Shown here piece by piece: positions 2,271 to 14,550 of a stretch of 21,819 nt of DNA; within the stretch, counting starts at the first letter, position 1; each line of letters begins with the position of its first letter. Position numbers and translations under genes: made by a program. Source of the DNA: a virus; IMG/VR virus record IMGVR_UViG_3300025286_000164, positions 1-21,819 of that record, one strand, 5' to 3'. The notes under the pieces are model-generated. The model did not search any database, was not told where the DNA came from, and saw nothing but the letters and a program-made list of their open reading frames with translations.

Positions 2271-2321
2271 ACATAACAAGGCCATTAAAACGGACTAAAG
2301 CCGCTTATAACTGGGTTATGT
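2271..2321 (+). repeat. attC-like site 6
   Basis: ACATAAC and GTTATGT boxes are exactly complementary and flank an imperfect stem (AAAACGG against CCGCTTAT) with a 7-nt loop. The stem is less regular than in the other sites, and the position of the unpaired base is uncertain. The stop of the gene at 2323-2547 (TGA) lies just outside the box. The flanking sequence towards the 65-aa gene is shared with sites 4 and 7. Confidence 0.65.
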
Positions 2322-2322
2322 G

Positions 2323-2547: not shown

Positions 2548-2552
2548 AGCAT

Positions 2553-2582
2553 CTCCCGTAACTCACACATAACAACCAGTTG
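2553..2582. repeat. 30-nt exact direct repeat, copy 2
   Basis: Identical to 1795..1824. It precedes the 74-aa gene on the minus strand. A shorter third copy with one mismatch lies at 2257..2279 before the 65-aa gene. Three neighbouring cassettes therefore have the same translation leader. Confidence 0.85.
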
Positions 2583-2610
2583 GTGGGCTTTAACTCCCAC
2601 CGTACACACC
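2567..2610 (+). repeat. attC-like site 7, truncated half-site
   Basis: The left half is canonical: ACATAAC, AACCA spacer, GTT, unpaired G, GTGGG arm, 8-nt loop, CCCAC. The right AAC, spacer and GTTRRRY box are missing; unrelated sequence follows up to about 2,700, where a weak GTTATCA occurs beside the lipoprotein stop. It shares an exact 30-nt stretch with site 4 (see the direct repeat entries). It looks like a site that lost one end. Confidence 0.6.
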
Positions 2611-2702
2611 CCACAAGCCCATTACACACTTTACTCGCCTACCTGTTGCATAGGGTAATAAATCAATTAGATTAGGGCTGTAGTGGTTTCCGGCTATGGT
2701 TA

Positions 2703-2888
2703 TCATTTGCAAGCCTTTACAGTGCCATCTTGGTTATAAGCAACTGTTGCACCGCTAGTAAACTGCAAATATAAAACGCCATCATGGCAAGTTTTTGATG
2801 CGCCACCTGTTACCTTGGCGCTAAATCTATCCCAAGCACCGCAACCACTAAGCACTACACACATAAAAATCACTGATAAATATTTCAC
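2703..2888 (-). CDS. small outer-membrane-type lipoprotein, 61 aa
   Basis: Starts at GTG 2888, with AAGGAG about 7 nt upstream, overlapping the stop of the zinc protein (GTGA). The first 16 residues form a lipoprotein signal: Lys2, hydrophobic core SVIFMCVV, lipobox LSGC with Cys16. The mature part is about 46 residues with two further cysteines (CHDG and C-terminal ACK) that could form a disulfide, and a short beta-rich domain (GVLYLQFTSGATVAYNQDGTV) typical of small periplasmic lipoproteins. Phage lipoproteins of this size often act in superinfection exclusion or as Rz1-like spanins. The low proline content and the early-gene location argue against Rz1. The exact role is unknown. Confidence 0.7.
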   Translation of the reverse strand: MKYLSVIFMCVVLSGCGAWDRFSAKVTGGASKTCHDGVLYLQFTSGATVAYNQDGTVKACK

Positions 2889-3037
2889 TTCTCTACTCCT
2901 TTAAGCTTTTCTGCTTGTTTTACGTTACGGTAATTCTTTTGCTTACACGCCTTAGAACAAAACTTTTGCCATTCTTTGACTGGCTCAAATTTCTTTCTAC
3001 AACCCTTTAAGCTACATTTTGTCTTTTCATTTTTCAT
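2885..3037 (-). CDS. small zinc-finger protein, 50 aa
   Basis: Translated from ATG 3037 to TGA 2885. Cysteines are at 8 and 13 (CSLKGC) and 27 and 31 (FCSKAC), followed by a basic helix (KQKNYRNVKQAEKLK). This C-x4-C...C-x3-C layout with the FCS-AC signature is typical of short phage or bacterial zinc fingers that bind nucleic acid or fold a small adaptor. It is directly downstream of NinG and overlaps the lipoprotein start. No named family is claimed. Confidence 0.65.
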   Translation of the reverse strand: MKNEKTKCSLKGCRKKFEPVKEWQKFCSKACKQKNYRNVKQAEKLKGVEK

Positions 3038-3046
3038 GCTGTAAGC

Positions 3047-3072
3047 GTAACAAAGGGTTATGCATAACGCAA
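3047..3072 (+). repeat. attC-like site 8, stemless remnant
   Basis: GCGTAAC, a 5-nt spacer, then GTTATGC: both end boxes of an attC-like site are present, but the whole stem-loop between them is missing. A second GCATAAC overlaps the right box, forming a TTATGCATAA palindrome. It lies between the small zinc protein and NinG, exactly where an intact site would be expected, so it is read as a deletion product. Confidence 0.45.
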
Positions 3073-3086
3073 CAAATACTTTAGCT

Positions 3087-3668
3087 TTATTTATCGCCCC
3101 GAATCTTTTCTAGTACGCGCTTTTTCTTTCTGAATATTTTCTTTATTCGCTCATAGTAATATTTAGAAAAGTCTCGTTTATGTGTTTTCCAGTATTTAGC
3201 ATCGGCTTCAAATTGCTCAAACCTTTCAACGCCTAGCCTTTCCTTAAGATTATCTCGATAGTCGTGAATATAATCCTCCTGATGCTTATTGCTTGCCTTG
3301 GTTGCCTTGTGTACGTTTCTAAGGTCAAACCTCATAGCGTTATTAGCAGCTCTTGAGATAAAGTGGGCTGCATCACTGTCATTGCCATTCCAGTCAACAG
3401 GAGCGCCTGTATTGATACATGGCTTATCTTTATCCCTGTACCTTACATATTCATTAAAAGCTTTCTGAGCGTCTGCTTGAAGGGTATTCTTTGGCCTATC
3501 CTGCTTATTCCTAGCTTTTATTTCTTTGGTCTTGTTGTCGTAAGCCTTTTTCTTACCATAGCTATAAGCGCAATCCATTGAACACATATTACCTACAGGG
3601 AGCTTTATCATTTGCTCTCTAGGGAATCTATCTTTGCAGTTTGTACACTTAAGCGTTGCTGTTGGCAT
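3087..3668 (-). CDS. ninG: NinG / Rap-type recombination protein
   Basis: The 193-aa product matches the layout of lambda NinG (Rap), a structure-specific nuclease acting on recombination intermediates. It has an N-terminal zinc motif (CTNCKDRFP near residues 9-17, then CSMDC), a basic linker, and a C-terminal domain with HFISRAANNAMRFDLRNVHKATKASN, the HNH-like signature of the family. The length is close to lambda NinG. A GTG two codons upstream opens the longest frame, but ATG 3668 has GAGAGG at better spacing. It lies downstream of NinB, as in lambda, but here is flanked by attC-like site 9 and the remnant site 8. Confidence 0.85.
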   Translation of the reverse strand: MPTATLKCTNCKDRFPREQMIKLPVGNMCSMDCAYSYGKKKAYDNKTKEIKARNKQDRPKNTLQADAQKAFNEYVRYRDKDKPCINTGAPVDWNGNDSDAAHFISRAANNAMRFDLRNVHKATKASNKHQEDYIHDYRDNLKERLGVERFEQFEADAKYWKTHKRDFSKYYYERIKKIFRKKKRVLEKIRGDK

Positions 3669-3679
3669 CACTCACCTCT

Positions 3680-3732
3680 CTATAACCCTTACATGATACG
3701 GTCGCTTTGCGCCGCATATGTTTTTGTTATGC
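3680..3732 (+). repeat. attC-like site 9
   Basis: Plus-strand parse: CTATAAC box, 5-nt spacer, CAT, unpaired G, ATACGG arm, 10-nt central hairpin, CCGCAT arm, ATG, 5-nt spacer of T, GTTATGC box. The right box supplies the Ala-stop (GCA-TAA) of the 72-aa gene upstream of NinG. Confidence 0.8.
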
Positions 3733-3945
3733 GTCATAGCTGTTGTATTTTTCAATAGCTATCAGTGGATCTTGGTAACTGTTGCTTGTCTCGCTTTGTC
3801 CGTCATAATAGCGAACTCTATATCTAAGCTGTGCAGGGTTGAATTTTAGGTCTTTAGCTTTGTGCGTTTTTGCAGTACAGCTACTTGCTAAAACTATTTC
3901 TTGTTCCATTGCTGGCATAATTTCTTCAATGGTTACGGTGTGCAT
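3727..3945 (-). CDS. hypothetical protein, 72 aa, cassette gene
   Basis: The longest frame starts at 3978 with an ATG inside attC-like site 10. ATG 3945 (MHTVTIEEIMPAMEQ) has AGAGG about 8 nt upstream and clears the element, so it is preferred. The C-terminal half, with LRYRVRYYDGQSETSNSYQDPLIAIEKYNSYDA, looks like a small beta-sheet domain; no family is recognised. It is bounded by sites 10 and 9, and its last codon and stop are in the box of site 9. Confidence 0.65.
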   Translation of the reverse strand: MHTVTIEEIMPAMEQEIVLASSCTAKTHKAKDLKFNPAQLRYRVRYYDGQSETSNSYQDPLIAIEKYNSYDA

Positions 3946-3969
3946 TTTAATATCCTCTATCGTTTCAAC

Positions 3970-4055
3970 GCATAACAAGGCGCTGCACTGGATTCGTCAT
4001 ATCATTTTTCGTTTCACTCATCATTCATTCCTCACTCGTGAGCTTGGGGTTATCT
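3970..4055 (+). repeat. attC-like site 10 (long form)
   Basis: Plus-strand parse: GCATAAC box, 5-nt spacer AAGGC, GCT, unpaired G, CAC, a long central region of about 45 nt, GTG, AGC, 5-nt spacer, GTTATCT box. The central region contains a CTCACTCGTGAG palindrome. At 86 nt it is the longest site here; variable central length is normal for attC sites. Confidence 0.75.
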
Positions 4056-4083
4056 CTCACTATCTAGCATCTCACTATGTCTA

Positions 4084-4560
4084 TCAATCAAGCGCAAAGC
4101 GTAGTTCATCAGGAACCGTTAAACCCCATCCTTCACTTATTGCTAAATTCTGATAACTATCTAAGAATTCTTTATTCTGTTTAACCGTAAAGCTATTAGT
4201 TGTTATACCTGCAACAAAGGATTTCATACATTGCTGGTACTCCATTTGCATCCCTTGGGTTTTCAGGTTGCGGATAACATCAATGGTATCTGATGAATAA
4301 ACACCGTTAACTTGTATTCTGTCGCGGTAGAAAATAGGTACAGCTAGCTTAAGCATTATTCGATTTCTTATCTGGTCGTGCGTGTGTCCTGTCTGCTTTG
4401 CTACCTCACCATGCCACATATGACCTAATCGCCTTTGAGCTTGGCTTCTATCCTGTTTAACCTCTTGCACTATAATTTCTGTCTTTGAGTCCATATCGGC
4501 CTCTAGGATGTATTTAATAGCGTTACCGCGCACAGTTTCATTGGCTAATAGATAATGCAT
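4084..4560 (-). CDS. ninB: NinB-like recombination protein
   Basis: The 158-aa product has the NinB signature in its middle: a Gln/Arg-rich helix followed by HMWHGEVAKQTGHTHDQI and the KLAVPIF strand. NinB (lambda Orf) is a single-strand-DNA-binding mediator that supplies RecFOR-like function in phage Red recombination. The start at ATG 4560 has GAGGG about 9 nt upstream. The length is near the usual 145-160 aa. It lies between DnaB and NinG, as in lambdoid phages, and would cooperate with the YqaJ nuclease and SSB on the other arm. Confidence 0.85.
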   Translation of the reverse strand: MHYLLANETVRGNAIKYILEADMDSKTEIIVQEVKQDRSQAQRRLGHMWHGEVAKQTGHTHDQIRNRIMLKLAVPIFYRDRIQVNGVYSSDTIDVIRNLKTQGMQMEYQQCMKSFVAGITTNSFTVKQNKEFLDSYQNLAISEGWGLTVPDELRFALD

Positions 4561-4589
4561 TTGCTATTACCCTCTATTCTTATTCATGC

Positions 4590-4874
4590 CTATACTCCCT
4601 GCTCTAAATCTTTGATTCTGTTAAGTAAAACATTAACCTTAATCTTTAGGTCAATATTCTCTCTCTCGGCTAAATAAGATTTAGTAGCCTTTCTGCAAAG
4701 GTCTTGATATTCAAATAAATCAATAATCTCCTTAGCTAAAAAAATATCATTAAAGTTTGAATGTATGCCTCCTTTTTCAGGGATAAGCGATATAAGCATT
4801 TCACCATTTGCGGAGTTTTCTTGCCGCCACCCTAATACACCACAACTTCTCAATAGAGAATTAATATCCCTCAT
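4590..4874 (-). CDS. hypothetical protein, 94 aa
   Basis: Starts at ATG 4874 with GGGAGGT about 6 nt upstream, two bases after the stop of the 29-residue ORF. The C-terminal half is helical and probably coiled-coil (LAERENIDLKIKVNVLLNRIKDLEQ). The N-terminal half has a short beta segment (NGEMLISLIPEKGG). Not recognised. It sits in the leftward replication operon between DnaB and NinB. Confidence 0.65.
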   Translation of the reverse strand: MRDINSLLRSCGVLGWRQENSANGEMLISLIPEKGGIHSNFNDIFLAKEIIDLFEYQDLCRKATKSYLAERENIDLKIKVNVLLNRIKDLEQGV

Positions 4875-4875
4875 A

Positions 4876-4965
4876 TCAACCTCCCTTACGCACTAATAAC
4901 CACTCAGCAACAAGCTTGTTTATCTCGAAATCGCTTAACTTGGTATAATCGGTTTTTTCTTGCAT
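4876..4965 (-). CDS. 29-residue ORF resembling the N-terminus of a phage DUF2591-type protein
   Basis: ATG 4965 to TGA 4876 with GGAG about 6 nt upstream. The peptide reads MQEKTDYTKLSDFEINKLVA and continues to EWLLVRKGG. The D-Y-x-KLSDFEIN-x-x-VAE pattern is what I recall from the start of phage proteins of the DUF2591 group, which are normally much longer. This is therefore either a truncated gene or a stand-alone mini-protein. The ribosome binding site and the tight coupling to the next gene favour translation. Confidence 0.5.
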   Translation of the reverse strand: MQEKTDYTKLSDFEINKLVAEWLLVRKGG

Positions 4966-4984
4966 AAGATTCTCCAAAACATTA

Positions 4985-5019
4985 TCCAAACTTAAAGTAA
5001 AGCGCAGTGGTCGTTTGGA
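4985..5019. repeat. 7-bp inverted repeat in the 4,966-5,126 gap
   Basis: TCCAAAC (4985-4991) and GTTTGGA (5013-5019) form a 7-bp stem around a 21-nt loop, about 20 nt upstream of the 29-residue ORF. No T-run follows, so it is not a clear terminator. The rest of the 160-nt gap holds no gene I can support. Confidence 0.35.
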
Positions 5020-5126
5020 AACCGGATTAAGTAATTACTCAAAATCTTTTACTGCACCCATTTATATTAACACCCTATAGATATTATTCAAGGGGTTATC
5101 TCTCTACCCTCTAATAGTCGTTAAAA

Positions 5127-5324
5127 TTATCGCTTAGAATCTTCCACAGCTTTTTTAATGTAATCCTCAATCAGGTGGCTAGCCTTTCTATTTTTACCGC
5201 CTAGCTGGCCTCTATTGAACTTCTCTAAAGCCTCTTGAGCGCAGCTTCTAGCAATTGATGGCTTAGCTTTCTTGGCTGTAGCGCCGTTAAATACTTGCTT
5301 ATAAACAAAATCTTGTGGATTCAT
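5127..5324 (-). CDS. hypothetical protein, 65 aa
   Basis: Starts at ATG 5324, one base after the TGA of the upstream gene, with AAGGGCG as a weak ribosome binding site inside that gene. It is strongly basic and helical (residues 15-45 rich in Lys, Arg and Ala), which suggests nucleic-acid or nucleoprotein contact, but no domain is recognised. It is part of the DnaB-to-NinB operon. Confidence 0.6.
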   Translation of the reverse strand: MNPQDFVYKQVFNGATAKKAKPSIARSCAQEALEKFNRGQLGGKNRKASHLIEDYIKKAVEDSKR

Positions 5325-5325
5325 A

Positions 5326-5676
5326 TCAATGCGCCCTTAACGGTACGCCCTCCTCGCTTTTAACTGTTGTCACGCCTATTTCTTTTTCAGCACCCTCAAT
5401 ATCAATATTCATAGCCTTTGCAAGCAATATCACATCACGCGCTATGGCAGCCTTATAGTTTGATACTGTTATTTCTAGCTCAGGGAAAGACTCATCATTA
5501 AGCCATGCTGCATAACCTGTCTCATCACAAAACCCCATGCCTTCGCATTCCTCCATTTCGTGACCGCAGTGAAAGCACTCTTTTTCGCAGTCACATTCGA
5601 CCTCGCAGATATAATGATGCTCAACCTCTTCTAGCTGAAGCTTTGCCCACGTTTCAAAATCCACTATTGTTTTCAT
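5326..5676 (-). CDS. cysteine-rich phage protein, 116 aa
   Basis: Starts at ATG 5676, with AAGGAAAAT upstream. Residues 24-51 carry a dense cluster of Cys and His (CEVECDCEKECFHCGHEMEE, then CDETGY), enough to bind at least one zinc ion. The rest is acidic and helical. It is directly downstream of DnaB, so a role near replication is possible; the family is not recognised. Confidence 0.65.
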   Translation of the reverse strand: MKTIVDFETWAKLQLEEVEHHYICEVECDCEKECFHCGHEMEECEGMGFCDETGYAAWLNDESFPELEITVSNYKAAIARDVILLAKAMNIDIEGAEKEIGVTTVKSEEGVPLRAH

Positions 5677-5725
5677 CTCATTTTCCTTTTATTTAAATAA
5701 ATCTCTTAGCTGACTGATATTCTCG

Positions 5726-7099
5726 CTAGCTACTTGCACGCTTTGTTTTTTGGTATTGCTTAAACGGCGCTTCTTTTCTTGGCTCAGGTTCTGGCTCTCT
5801 TGGCTTTTCTCCAAATAAATTCTTAAACTTAGAGTGACCTAAATCAGAATTAAGAAAATCGATTCCTGTCTCACCATTACGGAACTTAGCTGTAATTAAT
5901 TCAGCAACGCCCTTTCTGTCTGTATTCTCGTTATAGACTTCATCACGATATAAAAACCAGATAATGTCAGCATCTTGCTCAATTGCGCCTGAGTCTCTTA
6001 GGTCGCTCATCATTGGTCGCTTGTCTGCTCTAGTTTCTAGTGAGCGGTTAAGTTGCGATAAAGCAATAACTGGGCAATTCATTTCTTTAGCTATCGCTTT
6101 TAAGCTGCGGCTAATCTCTGAAACCTCATTGGTACGGTTTTCGCTTTTGTTAGTTCGCATTAACTGCAAGTAATCAACAATAATTACATTTAGCTTTCCA
6201 TGTTTTCTCATCTCTCTTAATGCTCTAGCCCTAACCTGCTGAGGTGTTAAGGCGGGTCTGTCATCAATAATAACTGGATTATCTTTCACCCATTTTGTAG
6301 CACCTGCAAGCAATGGCCAATCTTCATTCTCCATAGTGCCTTTAGTTAATCGGTTAAGGTATATATTGCCCCTACTTGATAGCATTCTGGTCATTAATTG
6401 CTCAGCGCTCATTTCCATTGAAAATACTAGAGTTGCTCCCTCTTTGTTTTCCAGTGTGTTCTGAGCGATATTCATAGCTAGCGTAGTTTTACCCATTGAA
6501 GGGCGAGCAGCTAAGATGATCAAGTCTGTTTTGTTTAATCCTCCTATCCTTTCGTCTATATCCTTAAAGCCCGTAGGAAGCCCTACAGCGCTTTTTGAAT
6601 TACACCTAGCCTCTATATCAGAAATAACCGAAAGCATCACAGAATCGAATGAGCGCTCTTCTAGGGCTGTAAAATCTAACCCGCTTACATGAGATAGCGC
6701 GTTATTTATTTTTTTCTCACTATCAGGCTCGTCTGAGTAAATATCATTAGCCATCATTTGAGCGGCGGCTAGCACATTCCGCTCTTTGAATTTGTTGATT
6801 AGTATTTTAACGTATGACTTGAATTTTACAGAGGCTGGTGTGTTGGTAATAATCTCAGCAATGTAAGCCATGTTTGGGTTATCGCCTGCGCTGTTCATAG
6901 TGTCGGTTATGGTCATTGCGTCACACTCTATGCCGTTCTCATTTGCAAACAACATGGCGCTAAATATCTTCTGATGCTCAAGATCAAAGAAATGCTCTTT
7001 GGTTAATTGGCCAGCTGCATCAGCGATCAAATGATTATCTAGGAACAAAGCGCCTATAACGCCTTGCTCAGCTTCAATGCTTTTTGGTTGCTCAAACAT
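5726..7099 (-). CDS. dnaB: replicative DNA helicase, DnaB family
   Basis: This 457-aa hexameric helicase unwinds DNA ahead of the fork. The N-terminal DnaB domain spans residues 3-105 (EAEQGVIGALFLDN). The RecA-like ATPase domain has Walker A ARPSMGKTT (198-206), an ATPase-type acidic strand FSMEMSAEQL, Walker B IIVDYLQ (306-312), the arginine/sensor region IALSQLNRSLE (345-355), and the DLRDSGAIEQDAD motif (366-378). The length fits the family (about 450-470). The ATG overlaps the preceding gene by 8 nt, with GAGGG upstream. The loader-like gene immediately upstream is its probable partner. Confidence 0.97.
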   Translation of the reverse strand: MFEQPKSIEAEQGVIGALFLDNHLIADAAGQLTKEHFFDLEHQKIFSAMLFANENGIECDAMTITDTMNSAGDNPNMAYIAEIITNTPASVKFKSYVKILINKFKERNVLAAAQMMANDIYSDEPDSEKKINNALSHVSGLDFTALEERSFDSVMLSVISDIEARCNSKSAVGLPTGFKDIDERIGGLNKTDLIILAARPSMGKTTLAMNIAQNTLENKEGATLVFSMEMSAEQLMTRMLSSRGNIYLNRLTKGTMENEDWPLLAGATKWVKDNPVIIDDRPALTPQQVRARALREMRKHGKLNVIIVDYLQLMRTNKSENRTNEVSEISRSLKAIAKEMNCPVIALSQLNRSLETRADKRPMMSDLRDSGAIEQDADIIWFLYRDEVYNENTDRKGVAELITAKFRNGETGIDFLNSDLGHSKFKNLFGEKPREPEPEPRKEAPFKQYQKTKRASS

Positions 7100-7817
7100 A
7101 CTTACCCTCTAAAACTTTCACAAAGTTCTCTAATTTTGTCAGCCATTGAAAATCCGCTGACCAGTTTGACCCTAAAACCCTACCGCTAAGAAACTCTGAC
7201 TGATTAACGGCTTTGAAGTAAGTTAACCAAAATTCTAAGTTATCACAAGAAAAATCTTTATCTTTCCATCTGGCCTTGATTTGCTTTTTTCTTGTGTCAG
7301 TAAGTTTTGCCACCCTTGGGAGTTCAGGGCATTCTGTGTGATAAATATCTATCACTTGTTGATAGGGTATCTTTTCAATTACTGGTGCTTCATACAAGTC
7401 ATCTTCTGATGACGTAAGAGTATTATGTATCTGCTCTGTATCTGTATCTGTCTCTGGGGGCGTTACAGTAACAGTTTTGGAACGTTTCACTTTCTCCCTG
7501 TGTTTCTTGACTCTATCCGTAGAGGTATCTGATTTATATTGCTTTTTTCTCCATTGTGGAATACGAAACGTTTCACTATCCGTTGCAGATGAAACAAGTA
7601 ATTCGACCTCTTGAAACGCCATGAAACACGATGAAACATTCTCAATTGTTTCACGTAACGCGAATGCTGTTTCGTTTATCGTTCCAATATGACCATCTTT
7701 ATTAAGCATGGAAGCGTGGCAAAGTAGATTAATATAAATCTTAAATTCTTTGTCTGTGAGACTTTGAACAACTGGGTCATTCAATAGTTTGTTGTTGTGC
7801 AATCGTAACCATTGCAT
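7092..7817 (-). CDS. replication initiator / helicase loader-like protein
   Basis: The 241-aa product has an N-terminal winged-helix-like domain (residues 1-75: WLRLHNNKLLNDPVVQSL and LTDKEFKIYINLLCHAS). A basic linker rich in Ser, Thr and Lys follows (residues 88-125). The C-terminal segment reads WKDKDFSCDNLEFWLTYFKAV and ends NWSADFQWLTKLENFVKVLEGKY. The last stretch is the WL-KPENF-KVLEG-Y signature common to phage initiators of the lambda O / DnaT-like type that recruit DnaB. It overlaps dnaB, consistent with stoichiometric expression. The start is ATG 7817 with GAGAGGAA upstream. Confidence 0.75.
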   Translation of the reverse strand: MQWLRLHNNKLLNDPVVQSLTDKEFKIYINLLCHASMLNKDGHIGTINETAFALRETIENVSSCFMAFQEVELLVSSATDSETFRIPQWRKKQYKSDTSTDRVKKHREKVKRSKTVTVTPPETDTDTEQIHNTLTSSEDDLYEAPVIEKIPYQQVIDIYHTECPELPRVAKLTDTRKKQIKARWKDKDFSCDNLEFWLTYFKAVNQSEFLSGRVLGSNWSADFQWLTKLENFVKVLEGKYV

Positions 7818-7831
7818 TTATGTTCCTCTCA

Positions 7832-7870
7832 TGTAAATATTTAACCGATGCGGGTTGCAGCCCTACTCGG
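7832..7870 (+). terminator. hairpin with rightward T-run between loader and RHH genes
   Basis: AACCGA...TCGGTT with an inner GGG...CCC forms a hairpin, followed on the plus strand by seven T residues. As an intrinsic terminator it would stop rightward, antisense transcription; on the leftward sense strand the A-run precedes the hairpin. The adjoining ACATAAA box carries the stop of the 72-aa gene, as the attC-like sites do, so it may also be a highly decayed member of that set. Confidence 0.5.
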
Positions 7871-7875
7871 TTTTT

Positions 7876-8094
7876 TTATGTGTAATCAACACCAACTGAC
7901 TGAAGCATAAGCGCCTGTTCTAGTGTTAAATCTTCTCTCATCTCGTTAAGTACATTCTCAGCATTTTTAATTCCATGCGAGAAAGCTAACCTTAATAATT
8001 CAGAATGCTTTATGCCGCTATCGTGAGATATGGCCGCAGCTTTATCAGCTACAATAGTCGCTGTTCTAAAACTTACTTGCTTTGATAATTGCAC
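7876..8094 (-). CDS. small ribbon-helix-helix-like regulator, 72 aa
   Basis: First gene of the leftward arm. Starts at GTG 8094 with AAAGGAG about 8 nt upstream. The N-terminal strand SKQVSFRTATIV, followed by two helices (ADKAAAISHDSG and KHSELLRLAFSHGIKNA), has the size and order of ribbon-helix-helix DNA-binding proteins such as CopG/ParD types. It is preceded by a strong leftward promoter whose -10 box lies inside an inverted repeat, so self-regulation is plausible. That is inference; the fold call rests on sequence pattern only. Confidence 0.6.
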   Translation of the reverse strand: MQLSKQVSFRTATIVADKAAAISHDSGIKHSELLRLAFSHGIKNAENVLNEMREDLTLEQALMLQSVGVDYT

Positions 8095-8116
8095 TTATAA
8101 TTCTCCTTTGTTTGAT

Positions 8117-8136
8117 TTGGTTTCATTATAAACCAA
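8117..8136. promoter_or_regulatory. operator-like perfect inverted repeat over the leftward -10 box
   Basis: TTGGTTT and AAACCAA form a 7-bp perfect inverted repeat with a 6-nt spacer. The -10 hexamer of the leftward promoter overlaps its spacer and right half-arm. A dimeric repressor bound here would block the promoter. The ribbon-helix-helix-like protein just downstream is the nearest candidate ligand. Confidence 0.6.
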
Positions 8137-8154
8137 TACATATAGAGAATGCAA
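8125..8154 (-). promoter_or_regulatory. leftward early promoter (TTGCAT-18-TATAAT)
   Basis: On the minus strand TTGCAT is followed after 18 nt by TATAAT, a near-consensus sigma-70 promoter, about 30 nt upstream of the GTG at 8094. It would drive the whole replication arm. It sits back to back with the rightward promoter for the SLOG gene. Confidence 0.75.
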
Positions 8155-8176
8155 AGCCTTTTGTGTGGGTTTGTGG

Positions 8177-8182
8177 TAGAAT
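8177..8182 (+). promoter_or_regulatory. rightward -10 box (TAGAAT, extended by TGG)
   Basis: TAGAAT preceded by TGG resembles an extended -10 element; no good -35 box is seen. The expected transcription start falls at or next to the ATG at 8189, which implies a leaderless or nearly leaderless mRNA for the SLOG-family gene, in line with the absence of a ribosome binding site. Confidence 0.5.
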
Positions 8183-8188
8183 TGTTGG

Positions 8189-8512
8189 ATGAAATTAATC
8201 ATTGCAGGCGGCAGAAAATACGTTTTTACAAGGGGTGACGCTAAGAGAATTGATGCTATAAACCCTAGTGAAATTGTAAGCGGTGGCGCTACTGGAGCGG
8301 ATGCAGGCGGCGAAAAATATGCAAAGGTTAAAGATATACCGCTAAAGCTTTTTCCTGCTGACTGGAGTATAGGAAATAAAGCAGGGCCAATTAGAAATAC
8401 TGAGATGGCTAAATATGCCGATGCTGTCGCTTTGTTTAAAGGCGGCTATGGTACTGCTGATATGTATAAGAAAGCTGTAGCAAATGGATTAACTATTTAC
8501 GACTTTCGCTAA
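8189..8512 (+). CDS. SLOG-family protein (DUF2493 / YspA-type)
   Basis: The 107-aa Rossmann-like protein has the motifs of the DUF2493 branch of the SLOG superfamily: MKLIIAGGRKY at the start, IVSGGATGAD near residues 30-39, then a conserved KAGPIRNTEMA (65-75) and a terminal strand. SLOG domains bind nucleotide-derived ligands; stand-alone phage copies have no firmly assigned role. First gene of the rightward arm, with a likely leaderless transcript. Full length compared with single-domain members. Confidence 0.85.
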   Translation: MKLIIAGGRKYVFTRGDAKRIDAINPSEIVSGGATGADAGGEKYAKVKDIPLKLFPADWSIGNKAGPIRNTEMAKYADAVALFKGGYGTADMYKKAVANGLTIYDFR

Positions 8513-8585
8513 TCCCTAGCATGATCTAAACACCCTACATTTAATACCTATAATCCCTTTTTATTTTTAATTATTTTCTTTACTT

Positions 8586-8615
8586 TTGATTTTCAATCAT
8601 TAAACTAGATAGAAA
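8586..8615 (+). promoter_or_regulatory. weak rightward promoter candidate
   Basis: TTGATT, an 18-nt spacer and TAGAAA precede the gene at 8630 within an AT-rich gap (8,513-8,629) that otherwise holds nothing I can name. Confidence 0.25.
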
Positions 8616-8629
8616 TTAAGGAGAAAAAC

Positions 8630-8857
8630 ATGGGTAAATCAAATAAAGAATATAACGCTGAGCTAGATGTGACTTTGTTACTTCACGGCCTAAAGGCTGA
8701 TGATATTGACTTGCTAGATGTTCTGGGTTGGATTGGTGAAAGTGGCGGCAAGATGAGAGAAGAGATGCTAGAGATAGTATCAGAGGCTTTACGTAAATAT
8801 GATTACTTTCGGACTAATAGACTGCTAGAGGATGAGTTAGAATCTCATTTTGGATAA
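8630..8857 (+). CDS. hypothetical protein, 75 aa
   Basis: Starts at ATG 8630 with AAGGAG about 6 nt upstream. Mostly helical and acidic, with no recognised motif; it ends LEDELESHFG. Its TAA stop is part of the TAAC box of attC-like site 11, the first site on the rightward arm. Confidence 0.65.
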   Translation: MGKSNKEYNAELDVTLLLHGLKADDIDLLDVLGWIGESGGKMREEMLEIVSEALRKYDYFRTNRLLEDELESHFG

Positions 8858-8899
8858 CCCCGCTATTCAGCGGGAATCCGCTGCAATGAGTTGTTATGC
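8852..8899 (-). repeat. attC-like site 11
   Basis: Minus-strand parse: GCATAAC box, 5-nt spacer AACTC, ATT, unpaired G, CAGCGG arm, 4-nt loop, CCGCTG arm, AAT, 6-nt spacer, GTTATCC box. Its arms are almost the same as site 4, although that lies 7 kb away and points the other way. At 48 nt it has exactly the 5/6-nt spacers of aadA1 attC. It supplies the stop of the 75-aa gene. Confidence 0.85.
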
Positions 8900-8915
8900 T
8901 CCATTGGAGAAAAGA

Positions 8916-9128
8916 ATGATTAATTTTTTAAAAAGATTTTTTGGTAGGAATGTTATTGACGTTAAGAAGCTAACAAATACTAGTGGTAGTTTTTCATTAT
9001 TAGAGATAGAAGATGATAAGGATTATTTCATTATAGTTGATGATAGGGTTGTGAATATTGATGATATTTTGCGCCGCAAATCGGTACGTCAAAATCAGTT
9101 CACTATAGTTAGAACTAGAAGAACATAA
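8916..9128 (+). CDS. hypothetical protein, 70 aa, cassette gene
   Basis: The longest frame opens at 8850, inside the preceding gene and through site 11. ATG 8916 (MINFLKRFFGRNVID) has TTGGAG about 8 nt upstream and follows the element, so it is preferred. A basic amphipathic N-terminal helix is followed by an acidic beta-rich domain (LLEIEDDKDYFIIVDDRVVN). Not recognised. It ends RRT-stop, with ACA-TAA belonging to the box of site 12. Confidence 0.65.
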   Translation: MINFLKRFFGRNVIDVKKLTNTSGSFSLLEIEDDKDYFIIVDDRVVNIDDILRRKSVRQNQFTIVRTRRT

Positions 9129-9201
9129 CCCAAAGCTAAACGGTGAGGAAAGATGAGCGAAGCGAAGAAAGACGAGTCCGATTTTGAGCGCCTTGTTATG
9201 T
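9123..9201 (-). repeat. attC-like site 12 (long form)
   Basis: Minus-strand parse: ACATAAC box, 5-nt spacer AAGGC, GCT, unpaired C, AAA(AT)CGG arm, central region of about 34 nt, CCGTTT arm, AGC, 5-nt spacer, GTTATGT box. This site has C instead of G as the unpaired base. It overlaps the first 15 codons of the longest reading of the next gene. Confidence 0.7.
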
Positions 9202-9335
9202 TCGTTTGCCCTGTTTGTGGGTGCAGCAGGTGGGGCAATACAATTAGAGGTGGTGTTGATTACGGTTTATGTAATGGCTTTCGGCGCATGAATGATAAAT
9301 ACCTTAGATGCCAGTATAGCTGGAAAAGAACATAA
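9153..9335 (+). CDS. small zinc-ribbon-type protein, 60 aa (possibly 45 aa)
   Basis: The protein has CPVCGC at residues 19-24, then CNGF and CQY: a short zinc-ribbon-like arrangement with a VCPVCG knuckle. Two starts are possible. ATG 9153 has GAGG upstream but lies inside attC-like site 12. ATG 9198 lies in the end box GTTATGT and would give a 45-residue protein starting MFVCPVCGC, parallel to the 49-aa zinc protein on the other arm that also starts in a box. It ends KRT-stop using the box of site 13. Confidence 0.6.
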   Translation: MSEAKKDESDFERLVMFVCPVCGCSRWGNTIRGGVDYGLCNGFRRMNDKYLRCQYSWKRT

Positions 9336-9386
9336 CAAAACTATTAACGGGCAAGCTTGCTTGTCACGTTCAATGAAGGGTTATAA
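9330..9386 (-). repeat. attC-like site 13
   Basis: Minus-strand parse: TTATAAC box, 5-nt spacer CCTTC, ATT, unpaired G, AACG arm, central hairpin with an AAGC/GCTT core, CGTT arm, AAT, 6-nt spacer, GTTATGT box. The plus-strand GAAGGG in its right flank serves as ribosome binding site for the ATG at 9387, directly after the box, so the element provides both a stop codon and a translation start region. Confidence 0.8.
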
Positions 9387-9584
9387 ATGAATGATAAAGA
9401 CCTCAACTTACTTATAAACAAAGCTAGAGAGGCGGGGTATAAGCTAGGTAAGGAGTTTTGCGGGGTTGAGCCTAATATAGCGTTTTATGGTGAGGGCAAT
9501 CATCCTGATATAATTAGAGCGTTTGAGAATGCTTGGATTAAAGCAGCAAAAATTGAAATTGCAAAAGAAATAAAAAACCAATAG
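9387..9584 (+). CDS. hypothetical protein, 65 aa
   Basis: ATG 9387 directly follows the attC-like end box GTTATAA, with GAAGGG about 5 nt upstream inside the element. The protein is a short helical unit (LLINKAREAGYKLGKEF) plus a second helix (IIRAFENAWIKAAKIEIAKEI). Not recognised. It opens the seven-gene block that contains the YqaJ nuclease and SSB. Confidence 0.65.
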   Translation: MNDKDLNLLINKAREAGYKLGKEFCGVEPNIAFYGEGNHPDIIRAFENAWIKAAKIEIAKEIKNQ

Positions 9585-9599
9585 ATAGGAGTTACAAAC

Positions 9600-10112
9600 G
9601 TGACAAAGATAATCTACGAAACACACGCAAACGGCCACTGGAAGGAGCTTTTTAAAAGTAAAAATAAATTACTTGGTGGGCACAACTTAGTAGAGGGTGA
9701 AGAAATTTGTGCCACTATTGCCAATGTTGGTACAGATCAAGTTTATGACAAAGAAATGAAGGGCAATAAAGAGCTTGTTGTGCTGCATTTTGAGGGCGGG
9801 AAAATACCTCCTATGGCTTTGAATGTAACCAACTCTGAGACTATTGCTATGCTACATGGGAACACCTACCCGCAATGGCATGGTAAAAAAATACTCATTC
9901 ATACAGCAAAGGTTAAAGCTTTCGGTAAAGAGCATGATGCGCTACGGGTTAGGGCTAAGATCCCACGCGATGAGGACTATTCACAGTTTGAGAGTCAATT
10001 GCGCGACTGTAAGACCATGCAAGAATTACAAAAAATATTCTTGTCGTTTGATAAGCATATTCAGGGCGCTGTCACTAAAGTTAAAAACGAAATGAAGGTG
10101 AAGCTAGCATGA
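9600..10112 (+). CDS. conserved protein of phage recombination modules, 170 aa
   Basis: Starts at GTG 9600 with AGGAGT about 8 nt upstream and overlaps the nuclease gene by ATGA. Residues 40-125 look beta-rich and OB-fold-like, with VLHFEGGKIPPMALNVTN, then IAMLHGNTYPQWHGKKI and VKAFGKEHDALRVRAK. I associate this pattern with phage proteins of unknown function encoded next to recombination nucleases. The C-terminal 45 residues are helical. A single-strand-DNA-binding or annealing-accessory role is plausible from context; no RecT, Erf or Rad52 motif is visible. Confidence 0.65.
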   Translation: MTKIIYETHANGHWKELFKSKNKLLGGHNLVEGEEICATIANVGTDQVYDKEMKGNKELVVLHFEGGKIPPMALNVTNSETIAMLHGNTYPQWHGKKILIHTAKVKAFGKEHDALRVRAKIPRDEDYSQFESQLRDCKTMQELQKIFLSFDKHIQGAVTKVKNEMKVKLA

Positions 10113-10741
10113 GAGTAATAGATTGTGAGCAAGGCTCTCAGGAATGGCTAAAAGCTAGACTTGGTGTGATCTCTGGCACTCGCCTAGAGAATGCGTTTAA
10201 ACACTCCGAGGCACTTAGAAATCAATTGCTAGCTGAAAAAATGGTAACTTATGTTCAGCAAGAAGGCACAAGCAGAGATATGGATAGAGGCAACGCATTA
10301 GAGCCATTAGCCCGAAAAGAATATGAGCTGCAAATGGGATGCGATGTTGAGGAGGTTGGCTTTATCCTGCACCCTGAGCGTGATGATATTGGCCTTTCGC
10401 CAGATGGCATTATTAATAGTGGCGTTAAAGCTGTTGAGATTAAATGCCCTAAAAGCCCTACACATATCGAATATATGCGAAGTGGCACAGTGCCAAAGAA
10501 ATACCTCTTTCAATTGGCCGCGTACTTTCTAAATATTCCACAATTAGAAACAATTGATTTTGTTAGCTATGATGAGCTAAATGAGGTTAAATGCTTAAGC
10601 GTTGCAACACTTACGCTTGATGATATTTTAAAAATGGAGTATCTGAAAAATAAAACTATCGGCAGTATGGAAAACCTGAAAGAAAAAGTTTTCGATTTTG
10701 CTGATTCAATTCACACTGAATACAATAACTTAGTTTTTTAA
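10109..10741 (+). CDS. YqaJ / lambda-exonuclease-type recombination nuclease
   Basis: The 210-aa PD-(D/E)XK nuclease would digest 5' ends of double-stranded DNA to expose single strands for annealing. The hallmarks are in order: GSQEWLKARLGVISGTRLENA (residues 8-28), a conserved RGNALEPLARKEYE helix (51-64), catalytic Asp in LSPDGI (94-99), the E-x-K strand AVEIKCPKSP (107-116), and the Gln helix YLFQLAAYFL (132-141). The length is typical (200-220 aa). It is coupled to the upstream partner and followed by SSB, a standard phage Red-like module. Confidence 0.93.
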   Translation: MRVIDCEQGSQEWLKARLGVISGTRLENAFKHSEALRNQLLAEKMVTYVQQEGTSRDMDRGNALEPLARKEYELQMGCDVEEVGFILHPERDDIGLSPDGIINSGVKAVEIKCPKSPTHIEYMRSGTVPKKYLFQLAAYFLNIPQLETIDFVSYDELNEVKCLSVATLTLDDILKMEYLKNKTIGSMENLKEKVFDFADSIHTEYNNLVF

Positions 10742-10753
10742 GGAGCTATAAAA

Positions 10754-11197
10754 ATGAGAGGCGTAAATAAAGTAATAGTCGTAGGTAATTTAGGTCAAGA
10801 CCCTGAAAGCCGTTCTTTTCCCGATGGCGGCACTGTCACAAATATAAGTGTTGCTACTTCTGAATCATGGAAGGATAAGAATACAGGGCAACAGCAAGAG
10901 CGTACCGAATGGCATCGCGTAGTGTTTAAGCAGCGTCTTGCAGAAATTGCAGCTCAGTATCTTAAGAAAGGCTCTAAGGTTTATATTGAGGGTAAGCTCC
11001 AAACCCGCAAATGGACTAACCAACAAGGGCAAGATCAGTACACGACAGAAATACAAGCGCGTGAAATGCAAATGCTTGATAGTCGCGAAGGTGCAGGTGC
11101 TCAGGGTGGTTATCAGCAACAAGCACCACAACAACAGCAAGCCCCTCAAGCAGCCCCTCAAAGCGCTGACAACTTCGATGACGACATTCCATTTTAA
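10754..11197 (+). CDS. ssb: single-stranded DNA-binding protein
   Basis: The 147-aa protein starts at ATG 10754 with AAGGAG about 8 nt upstream. The OB-fold occupies residues 1-112: [19 protein letters not shown], an aromatic-rich middle with [32 protein letters not shown], and [15 protein letters not shown] Gln/Pro/Ala-rich disordered tail follows, ending DNFDDDIPF, the acidic tip that recruits replication and repair partners. It protects ssDNA during phage replication and strand annealing. Confidence 0.97.
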
Positions 11198-11208
11198 AGG
11201 TGAAACAG

Positions 11209-11613
11209 ATGATTGATGATAGTGAGCAAGCAGAGATTAATGCGCGAGTTGTAAGACTTGGAACTCAAGAAACAAAAACAAAAAAACGCCTTAAGGTTGT
11301 TGAGGAGCGTTTAGCGGTATTTGAAAAGACCGATGTAGAGGAGTACTTAGATCAAATAAGGGCTGACGTTGTAGAGGTACACAGCCAGTATCAAATGCTG
11401 ATAATGAAAACAACAACGCTTACAGAGCTACGTTACTTTCTAAAAGGTGATATAGAGCGCCAGAGTAGAATTATATCAGGCGCTATTTCTTGCTTTGATA
11501 TGCCTGATGAGTGGTGGCGAAACACAGAAGCTATGACATTACTTGACCTTTGCAATACTTTTGATAAGATAGGCAAAAACCAGTATGAAATAGCATCAAA
11601 AACATTAAATTGA
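11209..11613 (+). CDS. hypothetical coiled-coil protein, 134 aa
   Basis: A GTG at 11200 opens a slightly longer frame, but ATG 11209 has AAAGGTG about 6 nt upstream and is chosen. Residues 10-50 are charged and heptad-like (KTKKRLKVVEERLAVFEKTDVEEYLDQI), then come mixed helices. No enzyme motif is seen. Its place directly after SSB suggests an accessory role in the recombination block. Confidence 0.65.
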   Translation: MIDDSEQAEINARVVRLGTQETKTKKRLKVVEERLAVFEKTDVEEYLDQIRADVVEVHSQYQMLIMKTTTLTELRYFLKGDIERQSRIISGAISCFDMPDEWWRNTEAMTLLDLCNTFDKIGKNQYEIASKTLN

Positions 11614-11621
11614 GGTGATTT

Positions 11622-11822
11622 ATGGCAAGGCCAGATAATGATATTTTTAATAGGCATGGGTTTGTTGGTGAGACTGATAAAAAAGTAACACTTGATATTA
11701 ACGCACACACAGAGGCTTTTTTAGCTTCTGGTGGCGTTATTGAAGACTGCGGTAGTTACAATGATGATAATATTGTAACAATGGTTGACAGTAATGGTTG
11801 GTTTAACTGGGGTGAGGAATGA
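11622..11822 (+). CDS. hypothetical protein, 66 aa
   Basis: ATG 11622 follows GAGGTG. Small acidic protein (MARPDNDIFNRHGFVGETDK, ending DSNGWFNWGEE) with no recognised domain. It overlaps the following 52-aa gene by ATGA, showing translational coupling. Confidence 0.6.
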   Translation: MARPDNDIFNRHGFVGETDKKVTLDINAHTEAFLASGGVIEDCGSYNDDNIVTMVDSNGWFNWGEE

Positions 11823-11977
11823 AAAAAATTACTATACCTAGAGGCTGGCTTGGCATTAAGTACAACGCTAACCCTAAAGTAGGTGAGTTCTATATAACTA
11901 GTAAGGGGTTTGTTAATCAGTGTACGGTTAAAGGTGAGGCTGTGAATAAAACCATAGTAAAGCGTTTAAAGCGATAA
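11819..11977 (+). CDS. small basic protein, 52 aa
   Basis: Translated from ATG 11819 to TAA 11975-11977. The sequence starts MKKITIPRGWLGIKYNANPK, with VGEFYITSKGFVNQCTVKGE in the middle and a basic end (TIVKRLKR), consistent with a small beta-barrel. Not recognised. The stop is in the TAAC box of attC-like site 14, which closes the 2.6-kb block holding the nuclease and SSB. Confidence 0.6.
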   Translation: MKKITIPRGWLGIKYNANPKVGEFYITSKGFVNQCTVKGEAVNKTIVKRLKR

Positions 11978-12027
11978 CAAAACAATTAACAGGCAGCTAT
12001 GCTGTCACGTTCAATGAAGAGTTATAG
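11972..12027 (-). repeat. attC-like site 14
   Basis: Minus-strand parse: CTATAAC box, 5-nt spacer TCTTC, ATT, unpaired G, AACGTGACAGC arm, ATA loop, GCTGCCTGTT arm, AAT, 6-nt spacer, GTTATCG box. It shares its left half (TTCATTGAACGTGACA) with site 13, 2.6 kb away, so both ends of the recombination block carry related sites. Confidence 0.8.
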
Positions 12028-12045
12028 GCTGTTCACTACACTAAA

Positions 12046-12083
12046 CCGTACATTAGTAATGCACAACTAAAAATAATGTACGG
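12046..12083. repeat. 10-bp perfect inverted repeat in a gene-less cassette
   Basis: CCGTACATTA (12046-12055) and TAATGTACGG (12074-12083) are exact inverted copies separated by 18 nt. They lie in the 72-nt segment between attC-like sites 14 and 15, which has no convincing gene. Possible operator, hairpin regulator or remnant. Confidence 0.6.
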
Positions 12084-12099
12084 AGTATACTTATGATCA

Positions 12100-12170
12100 G
12101 TATAACCCTTAGCTCAGTTTTTGGCGTAAGCGCCAGCGAAACGACAATCAAATGCAGCGTTTTGTTATGC
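12100..12170 (-). repeat. attC-like site 15
   Basis: Minus-strand parse: GCATAAC box, 5-nt spacer AAAAC, GCT, unpaired G, CA-rich arm, central region with a GGCG/CGCC hairpin, TG, AGC, 5-nt spacer, GTTATAC box. The stem is weaker than at other sites, but boxes and spacers fit. It precedes the 80-aa gene at 12190. Confidence 0.65.
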
Positions 12171-12189
12171 GCTGCTACGGAGAATAGAG

Positions 12190-12432
12190 ATGGGAATACA
12201 GACGACTTATAGGGTGCATATTATGTACTCAACAGACCTTAGCGCACATGAAGATGATGAACTAGAGCGAAAACTAATGCTTGAGGGTGTAGCTAAAAAA
12301 TCAGATAGGATGGAACATTGCCTTATGTTTAACTATGTAGATGCCCTATTTACAGACCACGAGACAGCTAAAGAGTACCACCTACAAGCAACAAACATTA
12401 TTAAAAATGAGTTTGGCGGGGAAATTCTTTAA
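12190..12432 (+). CDS. hypothetical protein, 80 aa, cassette gene
   Basis: ATG 12190 has GGAG about 7 nt upstream, just after site 15. The first strand (YRVHIMYSTDL) and later helices (DHETAKEYHLQATNIIKNEF) suggest a small ferredoxin-like alpha/beta fold; no family is recognised. The TAA stop lies 2 nt before the box of site 16, so it is a one-gene cassette. Confidence 0.65.
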   Translation: MGIQTTYRVHIMYSTDLSAHEDDELERKLMLEGVAKKSDRMEHCLMFNYVDALFTDHETAKEYHLQATNIIKNEFGGEIL

Positions 12433-12434
12433 GC

Positions 12435-12490
12435 GCATAACAGGTATTAAACCGACAGCTTTAGCTGTTCGGTTCTAATCAGTGTTATGT
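12435..12490 (-). repeat. attC-like site 16 (last of the array)
   Basis: Minus-strand parse: ACATAAC box, 5-nt spacer, TTA, unpaired G, AACCGA arm, a perfect CAGCT/AGCTG central hairpin, TCGGTT arm, TAA, 5-nt spacer, GTTATGC box. It is the last site on the rightward arm; no further site is found between here and the right end. Confidence 0.85.
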
Positions 12491-12498
12491 ATAAAAGT

Positions 12499-12525
12499 TT
12501 GACTATTGTTTGTTGTGGGTATATT
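12499..12525 (+). promoter_or_regulatory. rightward promoter candidate (TTGACT-15-TATATT)
   Basis: A good -35 hexamer TTGACT and a -10 TATATT lie just after the attC-like array. The 15-nt spacing is shorter than ideal. It could start a separate transcript for the gene pair at 12555 and the TPR-sulfotransferase beyond. Confidence 0.4.
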
Positions 12526-12554
12526 CTTACTTGTAGAAATAAGGAGAAAGAAAA

Positions 12555-12827
12555 ATGTTACCTATTTATAAATGCAAAGCTTACTCAAAAAAAATAAGCA
12601 GAAAATATGAAGTAGCCAAACTCAAAGATTTTGTGAAATCAGCATACCCTGATGACAATGCAACCCTATCGGAGTTCATGGCATCTTTATTTGTAAGCAA
12701 AAAAAAGGCATCTGAAGCAATTAGCGATTTAATCTATATCGCTGAATGTCAGAGCGCTTACACGTTACACATTGCAAAACAGCCGCTTCTAGCTCATTGC
12801 GATCTTATGCACAAGGATGGTAATTGA
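12555..12827 (+). CDS. hypothetical protein, 90 aa
   Basis: ATG 12555 with AAGGAG about 9 nt upstream. A basic N-terminus (YKCKAYSKKISRKYEVAKL) is followed by helices (TLSEFMASLFVSKKKASEAISDLIYIAE) reminiscent of a small helix-turn-helix or winged-helix unit, but the match is not strong. It is coupled to the next gene by an overlap at TGATG. Confidence 0.6.
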   Translation: MLPIYKCKAYSKKISRKYEVAKLKDFVKSAYPDDNATLSEFMASLFVSKKKASEAISDLIYIAECQSAYTLHIAKQPLLAHCDLMHKDGN

Positions 12828-13015
12828 TGTACTTGCTTTTCCAGAGTATTGATGGGGTTATGGTTGCCACTCACTCTAGCTCAGACATAGAGAGTATTTT
12901 GGGTGAGTATAATGCCGCTATAGAGTCAGGTGTTACCTCTCTAAAGGTTGGTGAGTTTAGAGAGATTTATGATTTTAAAAACAAAAAAACAAAGTATAAT
13001 GAGAACCCCTTGTAG
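12827..13015 (+). CDS. hypothetical protein, 62 aa
   Basis: ATG 12827 overlaps the upstream stop; a TTG one codon earlier is not needed. The short protein has strand MYLLFQSIDGVMVATHSS, helix DIESILGEYNAAIESG and a charged end. Not recognised. Confidence 0.6.
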   Translation: MYLLFQSIDGVMVATHSSSDIESILGEYNAAIESGVTSLKVGEFREIYDFKNKKTKYNENPL

Positions 13016-13137
13016 CTCACTGCTATTGCCCTCTCCTCTTTAGTGGGTGGGCGCAAGGTTTTTAGAGGGTGGTCAACGACCTTCATACAAGTTTAGCCCG
13101 CTTGCCTCGAAAAGGGCCACCAACAATGGAGAGAGTT

Positions 13138-14550
13138 ATGAATATACACGAAAAAGCGTTGCAGTTAACCGTATCTGAGCGTTATGCAGAAGCAATACCT
13201 TACATCAAGCAAACCTTAAAACTTATACCTAAAAGCGCTGAGATGCACGCATCTTTAGCTATGTGCTACATGAATTGCAGCCAGTTAACCAAGGCTGAGA
13301 ACGCAATTTCAAAAAGCATAAAACTAAACCCCAGCAATGCTATAGCAAAACTGATACGCGCCGATATAGCCAAAAGAAAAGGGCTATTAAAATCATCCGA
13401 ACACAACATAAAAGAAGCGCTAAGATTAAGCCCTGATAATGCCTCTGTGCTAGCTTTCTACGCTAATTTGCTTATTGAGAAGGGCGATATGAAGGGTGCA
13501 GCGAAATACGCTGACAAAGCAGAAGAGGTAGACCCAGAGAAGGGCTTAGAGTGTGCAATACTAGCCTCAAACTTTCTTAAAGCCACAAAAGATAGCAAGC
13601 ATTTTAAAAAGCTACAAGATGAGTTTAATGAGGATCTTCCACAAAAAAACCTAATACCCGCAGCCTTTGCGCTTGGTAAGTGTTTTGATGAGGTTGGTGA
13701 GTATGATAAGGCTTTCAAATATTACGAGATAGGCAACACGCACAAAGCCGCCCAGCTTATCCTAAATAAAACACCAAGCGACCCAGAAGCTCACAGCGCA
13801 TACGTTAAAAGCATCATCAAGCTTATGCCTGATTATCTAGTCTCAAGCAATACAGGCAAGGGCAACAACTCACAAGAGCCTATTTTTATCGTGGGAATGC
13901 CTAGAAGTGGAACAACGCTAGTAGAGAGCATTATTACAGCTGGTGATGTGGTTGCGGGTGGTGAGCTACCGCACTTCTCAACAATTGCACACACATTCAA
14001 CTACCCTGATACAGATAATGAATTTAACTCATTTGATTTTGCTAAGCTTGGTAAGCAATACCTAGATAGAACGGGTTTAAGAGGTGCTAGATTCACCGAC
14101 AAACTACCAAACAACTTCCATTTTTTAGGGTTTATTCGCCTTTGCTTTCCTAATGCAAAGGTAATCCATGTAAAACGAAACCCTTACGATACATGCCTAA
14201 GTATGTATTTTAATAACTTTACATCACTAAACTACACAAACAACCTAGAGCATTTAGGTGTTTATTATAATGATTACATGGATATTGTGGAGCATTGGCG
14301 AGGCTGTGTTGATTTCTATGAAATTCAATACGAAACCCTTATAGAGCATCAGGAGGAGGAGACAAGAAACCTTATTAACTATTGCGGCCTTGAATGGAAT
14401 GATTGCTATATGGAGCCTCATAAAAACAATAGGCGAGTATCAACCGCAAGTATGCAACAGGTTAGAGAGCCTGTTTATAAAACAAGCAAACATAAGCACA
14501 AGAAATATGAAAAACATCTTGACTCTTTAATTGAAACAATTATGGTATAG
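13138..14550 (+). CDS. TPR-containing sulfotransferase
   Basis: A GTG at 13069 opens the frame, but ATG 13138 has GGAGAGA about 6 nt upstream and starts the first TPR helix. Residues 1 to about 215 form tetratricopeptide repeats (AEMHASLAMCYMNCSQLTKA, then NASVLAFYANLLIEKGDMKG). The C-terminal half is a PAPS-dependent sulfotransferase: the 5'-phosphosulfate loop VGMPRSGTTLVES at 252-264 and the 3'-phosphate strand VIHVKRNPYDTCLSM at 342-356. It would transfer sulfate from PAPS to a protein or glycan acceptor. It is intact at 470 aa and carries no obvious signal peptide. Such proteins are common in marine bacteria and rare in phages of this type, so it is likely acquired cargo, perhaps modifying host surface glycans. 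Confidence 0.9.
   Translation: MNIHEKALQLTVSERYAEAIPYIKQTLKLIPKSAEMHASLAMCYMNCSQLTKAENAISKSIKLNPSNAIAKLIRADIAKRKGLLKSSEHNIKEALRLSPDNASVLAFYANLLIEKGDMKGAAKYADKAEEVDPEKGLECAILASNFLKATKDSKHFKKLQDEFNEDLPQKNLIPAAFALGKCFDEVGEYDKAFKYYEIGNTHKAAQLILNKTPSDPEAHSAYVKSIIKLMPDYLVSSNTGKGNNSQEPIFIVGMPRSGTTLVESIITAGDVVAGGELPHFSTIAHTFNYPDTDNEFNSFDFAKLGKQYLDRTGLRGARFTDKLPNNFHFLGFIRLCFPNAKVIHVKRNPYDTCLSMYFNNFTSLNYTNNLEHLGVYYNDYMDIVEHWRGCVDFYEIQYETLIEHQEEETRNLINYCGLEWNDCYMEPHKNNRRVSTASMQQVREPVYKTSKHKHKKYEKHLDSLIETIMV

Follow-up and report, generated by a model that had tools for sequence, protein, structure and literature searches.

A palindrome over the leftward −10 of candidate divergent early promoters in an uncultured phage

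Small repressors of the ribbon-helix-helix (RHH) type, such as Arc and Mnt of the P22 immI region, act at palindromic operators that lie in a promoter, and in P22 they control an antirepressor gene. Divergent phage genes are also found in the cI-cro immunity regions of PY54 and the N15-type telomere phages; for PY54, Cro is described as binding only one 16-bp palindrome, and the cI and cro mRNAs as beginning at AUG (PMC4488713). Autorepression is described for the RHH protein RelB, which represses the promoter from which its operon is transcribed (PMC2812701). For viral SLOG domains, one proposal is that they degrade or sense immune signals of the cADPR type (PMC9503650).

Here we describe a 21,819-base virus record from IMG/VR (the window), in which a 94-nt gap separates an orphan ORF for a 72-residue protein with an RHH-like pattern (7876–8094, minus strand) from an ORF for a SLOG protein (8189–8512, plus strand). 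With moderate confidence, we propose that the 72-residue protein acts at a palindrome in this gap to repress the leftward replication operon to which its gene belongs, and that the back-to-back promoter of the SLOG gene lies outside this operator. The best precedent appears to be the cI/cro region of PY54, which we offer as a functional parallel and with no claim of a sequence relation. Both genes of the PY54 and N15-type regions encode lambda-type repressors, whereas here an orphan RHH-like ORF that heads a replication operon faces a SLOG gene; in place of the divergent CI- and Cro-type HTH genes of a lambda- or PY54-like immunity region, we found SLOG on one side and a protein with no HTH match on the other. 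The likeness to Arc and Mnt is that of a small phage protein at a promoter palindrome, but the protein has no Pfam match at E ≤10 and its proposed target is a replication operon. Similarly, the proposed autorepression resembles that of CopG- or antitoxin-type RHH operons, although the next gene here is an O-like initiator and not a toxin gene. The SLOG protein has the PF10686/phrog_289 domain in common with viral YpsA-clade SLOG proteins, its placement in that clade coming from the Pfam name. Among the matches listed in open-licence PMC, none describes a divergent phage switch made of an RHH and a SLOG gene, which we do not take to mean that none is in print.

The gap between two opposite gene blocks

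Both gene strand and base composition change at the gap. Among ORFs of at least 60 residues with a good Shine-Dalgarno (SD) sequence, those to the left of the gap comprise 13 on the minus strand and 0 on the plus strand, and those to the right 18 on the plus strand and 2 on the minus strand, one of which (21102–21380) belongs to a leftward block at the far right. Every kilobase up to 8000 has a negative GC skew and most of those between there and 20 kb a positive one, the sign changing at ~8 kb, at the gap. Because strand and skew both switch here, we take the gap as the point at which two gene blocks diverge, and the presence of a divergent control point there is supported. The leftward block is headed by the 72-residue gene, followed by a replication initiator or helicase loader (O-like; 7092–7817, minus strand; phrog_10469, DnaD-like helicase loader, 1e-32; phrog_345, O-like, 1.4e-30) and includes a DnaB-like helicase (5726–7099, minus strand; PF03796, 9.4e-98), NinB and NinG. 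From these replication and recombination genes we infer that the blocks are used early in infection. To judge from the sequence, the phage appears to begin its two opposite gene sets from one short stretch of DNA, which would be a control region of an ordinary kind for phages. We see an even chance that positions 8095–8188 hold, with the regulation proposed above, the divergent early promoters of an uncultured tailed phage.

A second record, G001, overlaps the window with at least 99.9% identity in long aligned pieces. It starts at window position 10325, leaving the gap uncovered, and extends ~10 kb past the right end, which identifies the window as a fragment. In the part past the window, G001 has a gene for a head closure protein, Hc3 (phrog_578, 2.8e-75), and a match to DNA ejection (phrog_598, 3.4e-7). 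In the window, the phage with this Hc3 gene also encodes a T5 A1-like 'DNA transfer protein' (18365–19948, plus strand; phrog_1745, E 1.7e-123), which has tblastn matches in 1123 phage records. Near 17770–17796, G001 is ~200 nt longer than the window. Repeated DNA at 15797–17011 is common to neighbouring genes of the right block, as seen from blastn of G001 against the window and from identical upstream sequences. The right block also contains a match to a Lar-like restriction alleviation protein in the N-terminal part of 15232–15819 (plus strand; phrog_599, 2.6e-10) and a 493-residue protein (13069–14550, plus strand) that matches only PHROGs of unknown function and, to our reading of its sequence, may consist of TPR repeats and, after them, a sulfotransferase-like domain.

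The predicted leftward promoter and the palindrome

The gap contains a perfect palindrome, TTGGTTT-CATTAT-AAACCAA (8117–8136), the sole match of its pattern with 0 mismatches in the window, which we regard as a candidate operator. An initial annotation of this DNA had reported the inverted repeat, with its six-nucleotide spacer, and its overlap with a leftward −10; both were confirmed, the repeat being exact and a perfect TATAAT (8130–8125, minus strand) lying inside it, so that the predicted leftward +1 (~8118) is covered as well. The annotation went too far, however, in calling the leftward promoter near-consensus. Its −35 is weak, the best candidates being TTGCAT (8149–8154, minus strand; 3/6, 18-nt spacer) and, alternatively, TTTGCA (4/6, 19-nt spacer). 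Scans for sigma-70 promoters listed neither this promoter nor the rightward one in the gap, and over positions 1–20000 they returned 41 promoter-like sites compared to 58 expected, so they weigh little in either direction. No Rfam family was detected at E ≤1 across 7400–8800.

Around the palindrome an imperfect dyad, found by inverted-repeat search, extends over 8106–8147 and is predicted to form 15 pairs in the fold of 8105–8150. Its statistics bear on a simpler explanation, in which both promoters are real and constitutive and the palindrome arose by chance in a gap rich in A+T. Perfect 7+7 dyads with a loop of 0–10 occur 11 times in the window, so such a dyad is by itself not rare, and shuffling the gap 2000 times produces one in 7.15% of cases; ranked on fold energy only, this site comes 272nd among all 7258 46-nt windows. 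However, a dyad overlapping a perfect −10 arose in just 0.25% of the 2000 gap shuffles, and the extended dyad folds with a z of −3.72, with none of 200 shuffles as stable. When the comparison is restricted to A+T-rich 46-nt windows (GC ≤14 of 46), 4 of 1078 fold at least as well, at three places including this dyad. Half-sites with at most one mismatch also speak against chance: there are five in the gap, compared to a window average of 0.56, a density that no other 94-bp stretch of the window reaches, with three of the five overlapping each other within a T-rich run. All of these tests, including that of the extended −10 below, were devised once the sequence was known and give moderate support, and on balance we consider a chance dyad unlikely. 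That the dyad is no operator but part of a replication origin or DNA structure close to the O-like gene would fit the change of GC skew at the gap and the start of the O-like gene ~300 bp away, but gene strand by itself can account for the skew, the dyad is positioned on a promoter, and 7050–8200 holds no iteron array, its two two-copy repeats both falling within the O-like gene. This explanation seems highly improbable to us.

We also looked for the operator in other genomes. No relative of the region was found and nothing showing its conservation. An exact 18-mer, TTGGTTTCATTATAAACC, occurs in three IMG/VR contigs, in each case within open frames unconnected to this phage, and was taken as chance.

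The SLOG gene and the predicted rightward promoter

The first gene to the right of the gap encodes a YspA/cpYpsA-like SLOG protein (8189–8512, plus strand), which matches PF10686 with 31.6 bits, above the curated cut-off of 28.2 (E 1.4e-7), and phrog_289 with an E of 2.6e-15, placing it in the SLOG superfamily. As the initial annotation had it, an extended −10 sets the start of transcription beside the ATG of this gene: TGG-TAGAAT (8174–8182, plus strand) puts the predicted +1 (8189) on the A of the ATG, seven bases past the −10 hexamer. No −35 scores above 2/6 at spacers of 15–20. An extended −10 with its +1 on the start codon was obtained in 0.41% of 20,000 shuffles. Among 43 hand-picked genes, a TGN-extended −10 is placed for a start at the codon only at the SLOG gene, and one other gene, 21102–21380, has a similarly placed GATAAT without TGN.

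A leaderless SLOG mRNA, with its 5' end predicted at the AUG, is plausible because the ribosome site of this gene is among the weaker ones in the window; its SD (−2.8 kcal/mol) is weaker than those of 38 of the 43 window genes, 4 of the 43 having one as weak or weaker. To assess the start codon we used 13 SLOG relatives, namely 3 IMG/VR loci and 10 phage records picked from 40 listed of 298. Their start positions are the annotated ones or, at the IMG/VR loci, those given by the match or by a mechanical ORF. In all 13, the N-terminus [IV][IV]AG[GS] begins no more than three residues from the equivalent position. Together with an in-frame TAG within the rightward −10, this makes ATG 8189 very probably the true start. 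The relatives also qualify the argument from the ribosome site: their SD is −4.3 kcal/mol or stronger in 10 of 13 and weaker in 3, and as these 3 have weak sites despite a preceding gene, and other window genes have weak sites too, a weak SD alone is no proof of a leaderless mRNA. In all 13 relatives a same-strand ORF ends at most 200 nt upstream of the SLOG start or overlaps it, and in the 10 named phages this ORF is annotated as a gene. The SLOG gene of the window, in contrast, is the first of its block, a placement that is therefore particular to this phage within the small sample.

A second rightward promoter-like site, TAAACA-16-TATAAT (8527–8554, plus strand), follows the SLOG gene. It could feed the right block separately, although it is one of two sites in 7600–8800, where 4.1 are expected by chance, and so represents no excess.

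The 72-residue protein and the proposed regulation

The 72-residue gene starts with GTG and is preceded by a strong SD, AAAGGAG (8103–8109, minus strand; −8.7 kcal/mol). The initial annotation had placed an RHH-like gene behind the leftward promoter. This is indeed the first gene downstream and it has an RHH-like pattern, but the profile evidence is weak, and we do not assert that the protein belongs to the RHH family. Our reading rests on features that we take to be typical of the family, a V-S-F-R strand, a helix and G-x-x-x-S-E-L-L-R. A motif composed from such features once the ORF was known, fitting DSGIKHSELLRLA of the protein, matched only this ORF (its own copies included) among 4000 mechanical ORFs. 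The CopG-like family phrog_7325 matched residues 7–47 with an E of 0.2 in a library-wide search. In a one-genome search its E was 7.7e-4 (13.5 bits), the sole match in 8 virus records; the family was chosen because of its library-wide match and also gives matches in 8 of 14 control genomes. PF01402 was silent across the window, no RHH match for the protein was found in NCBIfam or in PDB sequences, and no HTH model in Pfam, NCBIfam or PHROGs matched it. A single-sequence monomer model (mean pLDDT 71.7) contains helices at residues 9–26, 30–39 and 42–66 and no strand. Fold searches with this model gave weak matches throughout (Foldseek reached E 4.1 at best, and VIA-align a Z of 5.1, for a designed protein), and no recognised RHH chain is among the fold matches listed. 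Several other leads were followed and dropped: an NCBIfam match to a phosphorylase (E 0.12) is far under its own cut-off, phrog_14581 (E 0.028, residues 37–67) is a family of unknown function and leads nowhere, and the 'Arc-like repressor' of phage RcRhea, used as an RHH seed against PDB sequences, matched only a designed protein.

Relatives of the 72-residue protein were sought in four collections. None was found in viral_contigs, phages or genome_contigs, and plasmids returned one irrelevant match at E 2, which makes comparative footprinting of the palindrome impossible. Furthermore, tblastn of 23 window proteins against the collected loci (apart from L001, L054, L071 and L072) gave no relative of this protein at 1e-4. 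Relatives of other genes were sought as well. The O-like gene has no confirmed relative in viral_contigs or genome_contigs and matches 46 records in phages, all at <60% identity, of which we examined one region; the protein of 9600–10112 has no confirmed relative in viral_contigs. DnaB is found at 42 loci, and neither of the two with ORF lists that we examined (L008 and L009) has the layout described here.

The occupant of a palindrome that covers the leftward −10 and start should block leftward transcription, and since the 72-residue gene is the first to the left, its product is the natural candidate, which would give autorepression of the replication operon. The palindrome could instead be the operator of another regulator, a host factor or a repressor encoded outside the fragment, with the 72-residue protein doing something else. 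The ~10 kb that G001 adds past the right end would leave room for such a gene, and the 72-residue protein has no significant family match, yet no integrase, named repressor or HTH-type repressor was found among 48 PHROG-scanned proteins (40 from the window, 8 from G001), a scan that covers only part of the ORFs of an incomplete genome and left many without any match. We regard another regulator as possible but doubtful.

Autorepression by the 72-residue protein could operate as follows, to judge from the positions of the elements. The leftward promoter, with its perfect −10 and weak −35, would drive the 72-residue gene together with the replication genes that follow (O-like, DnaB). The 72-residue protein, probably as an RHH dimer, would bind the palindrome over the −10 and +1, and once enough had accumulated its own operon would be repressed. 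From the rightward extended −10 promoter, a transcript beginning at the SLOG AUG would yield SLOG protein from a leaderless mRNA. With ~71 bp between the predicted starts and the two promoters adjoining at their upstream sides, polymerases bound to them probably compete and would hinder each other; closing the left one may then favour the right. Direct repression of the SLOG promoter from the palindrome is not expected, because 53 bp separate its end from the rightward +1, which leaves the palindrome outside the core of that promoter. The earlier description of the region as an early control point of both arms therefore agrees with the geometry, the gap being the divergence point, but control of both arms by one operator is not supported, given this distance and the further promoter-like site at 8527–8554.

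If autorepression is confirmed, a compact early switch around an unstudied RHH-like protein would join the lambda/PY54 type. The predicted anti-immune SLOG gene would also become an early leaderless gene, hinting at when phages need SLOG proteins, and destroying or sensing cADPR-like immune signals, as proposed for viral SLOG domains, would suit such a gene. We can also imagine, as an improbable extension, a one-operator toggle without CI or Cro, in which the 72-residue protein, by blocking the leftward promoter, would both limit the replication operon and free the leaderless promoter of a counter-defence SLOG gene. Replication would thereby be traded against answering NAD-derived immune signals of the host, and the leaderless SLOG mRNA would still be translatable by 70S ribosomes under stress.

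Two further features lie downstream of the leftward promoter. Within the O-like gene, 7427–7580 contains two two-copy direct repeats (14 nt and 15 nt), possible origin elements. Between the end of the 72-residue gene and the O-like gene, a hairpin AACCGA...TCGGTT is followed by a run of T on the plus strand (7843–7877). A terminator scan restricted to short loops did not list this hairpin, and no promoter for an antisense transcript was found nearby. Nonetheless, with a predicted −12.2 kcal/mol (2 of 200 shuffles as stable), it looks like the intrinsic terminator of a rightward antisense transcript over the start of the O-like gene, an arrangement that we take to be in the manner of lambda oop.
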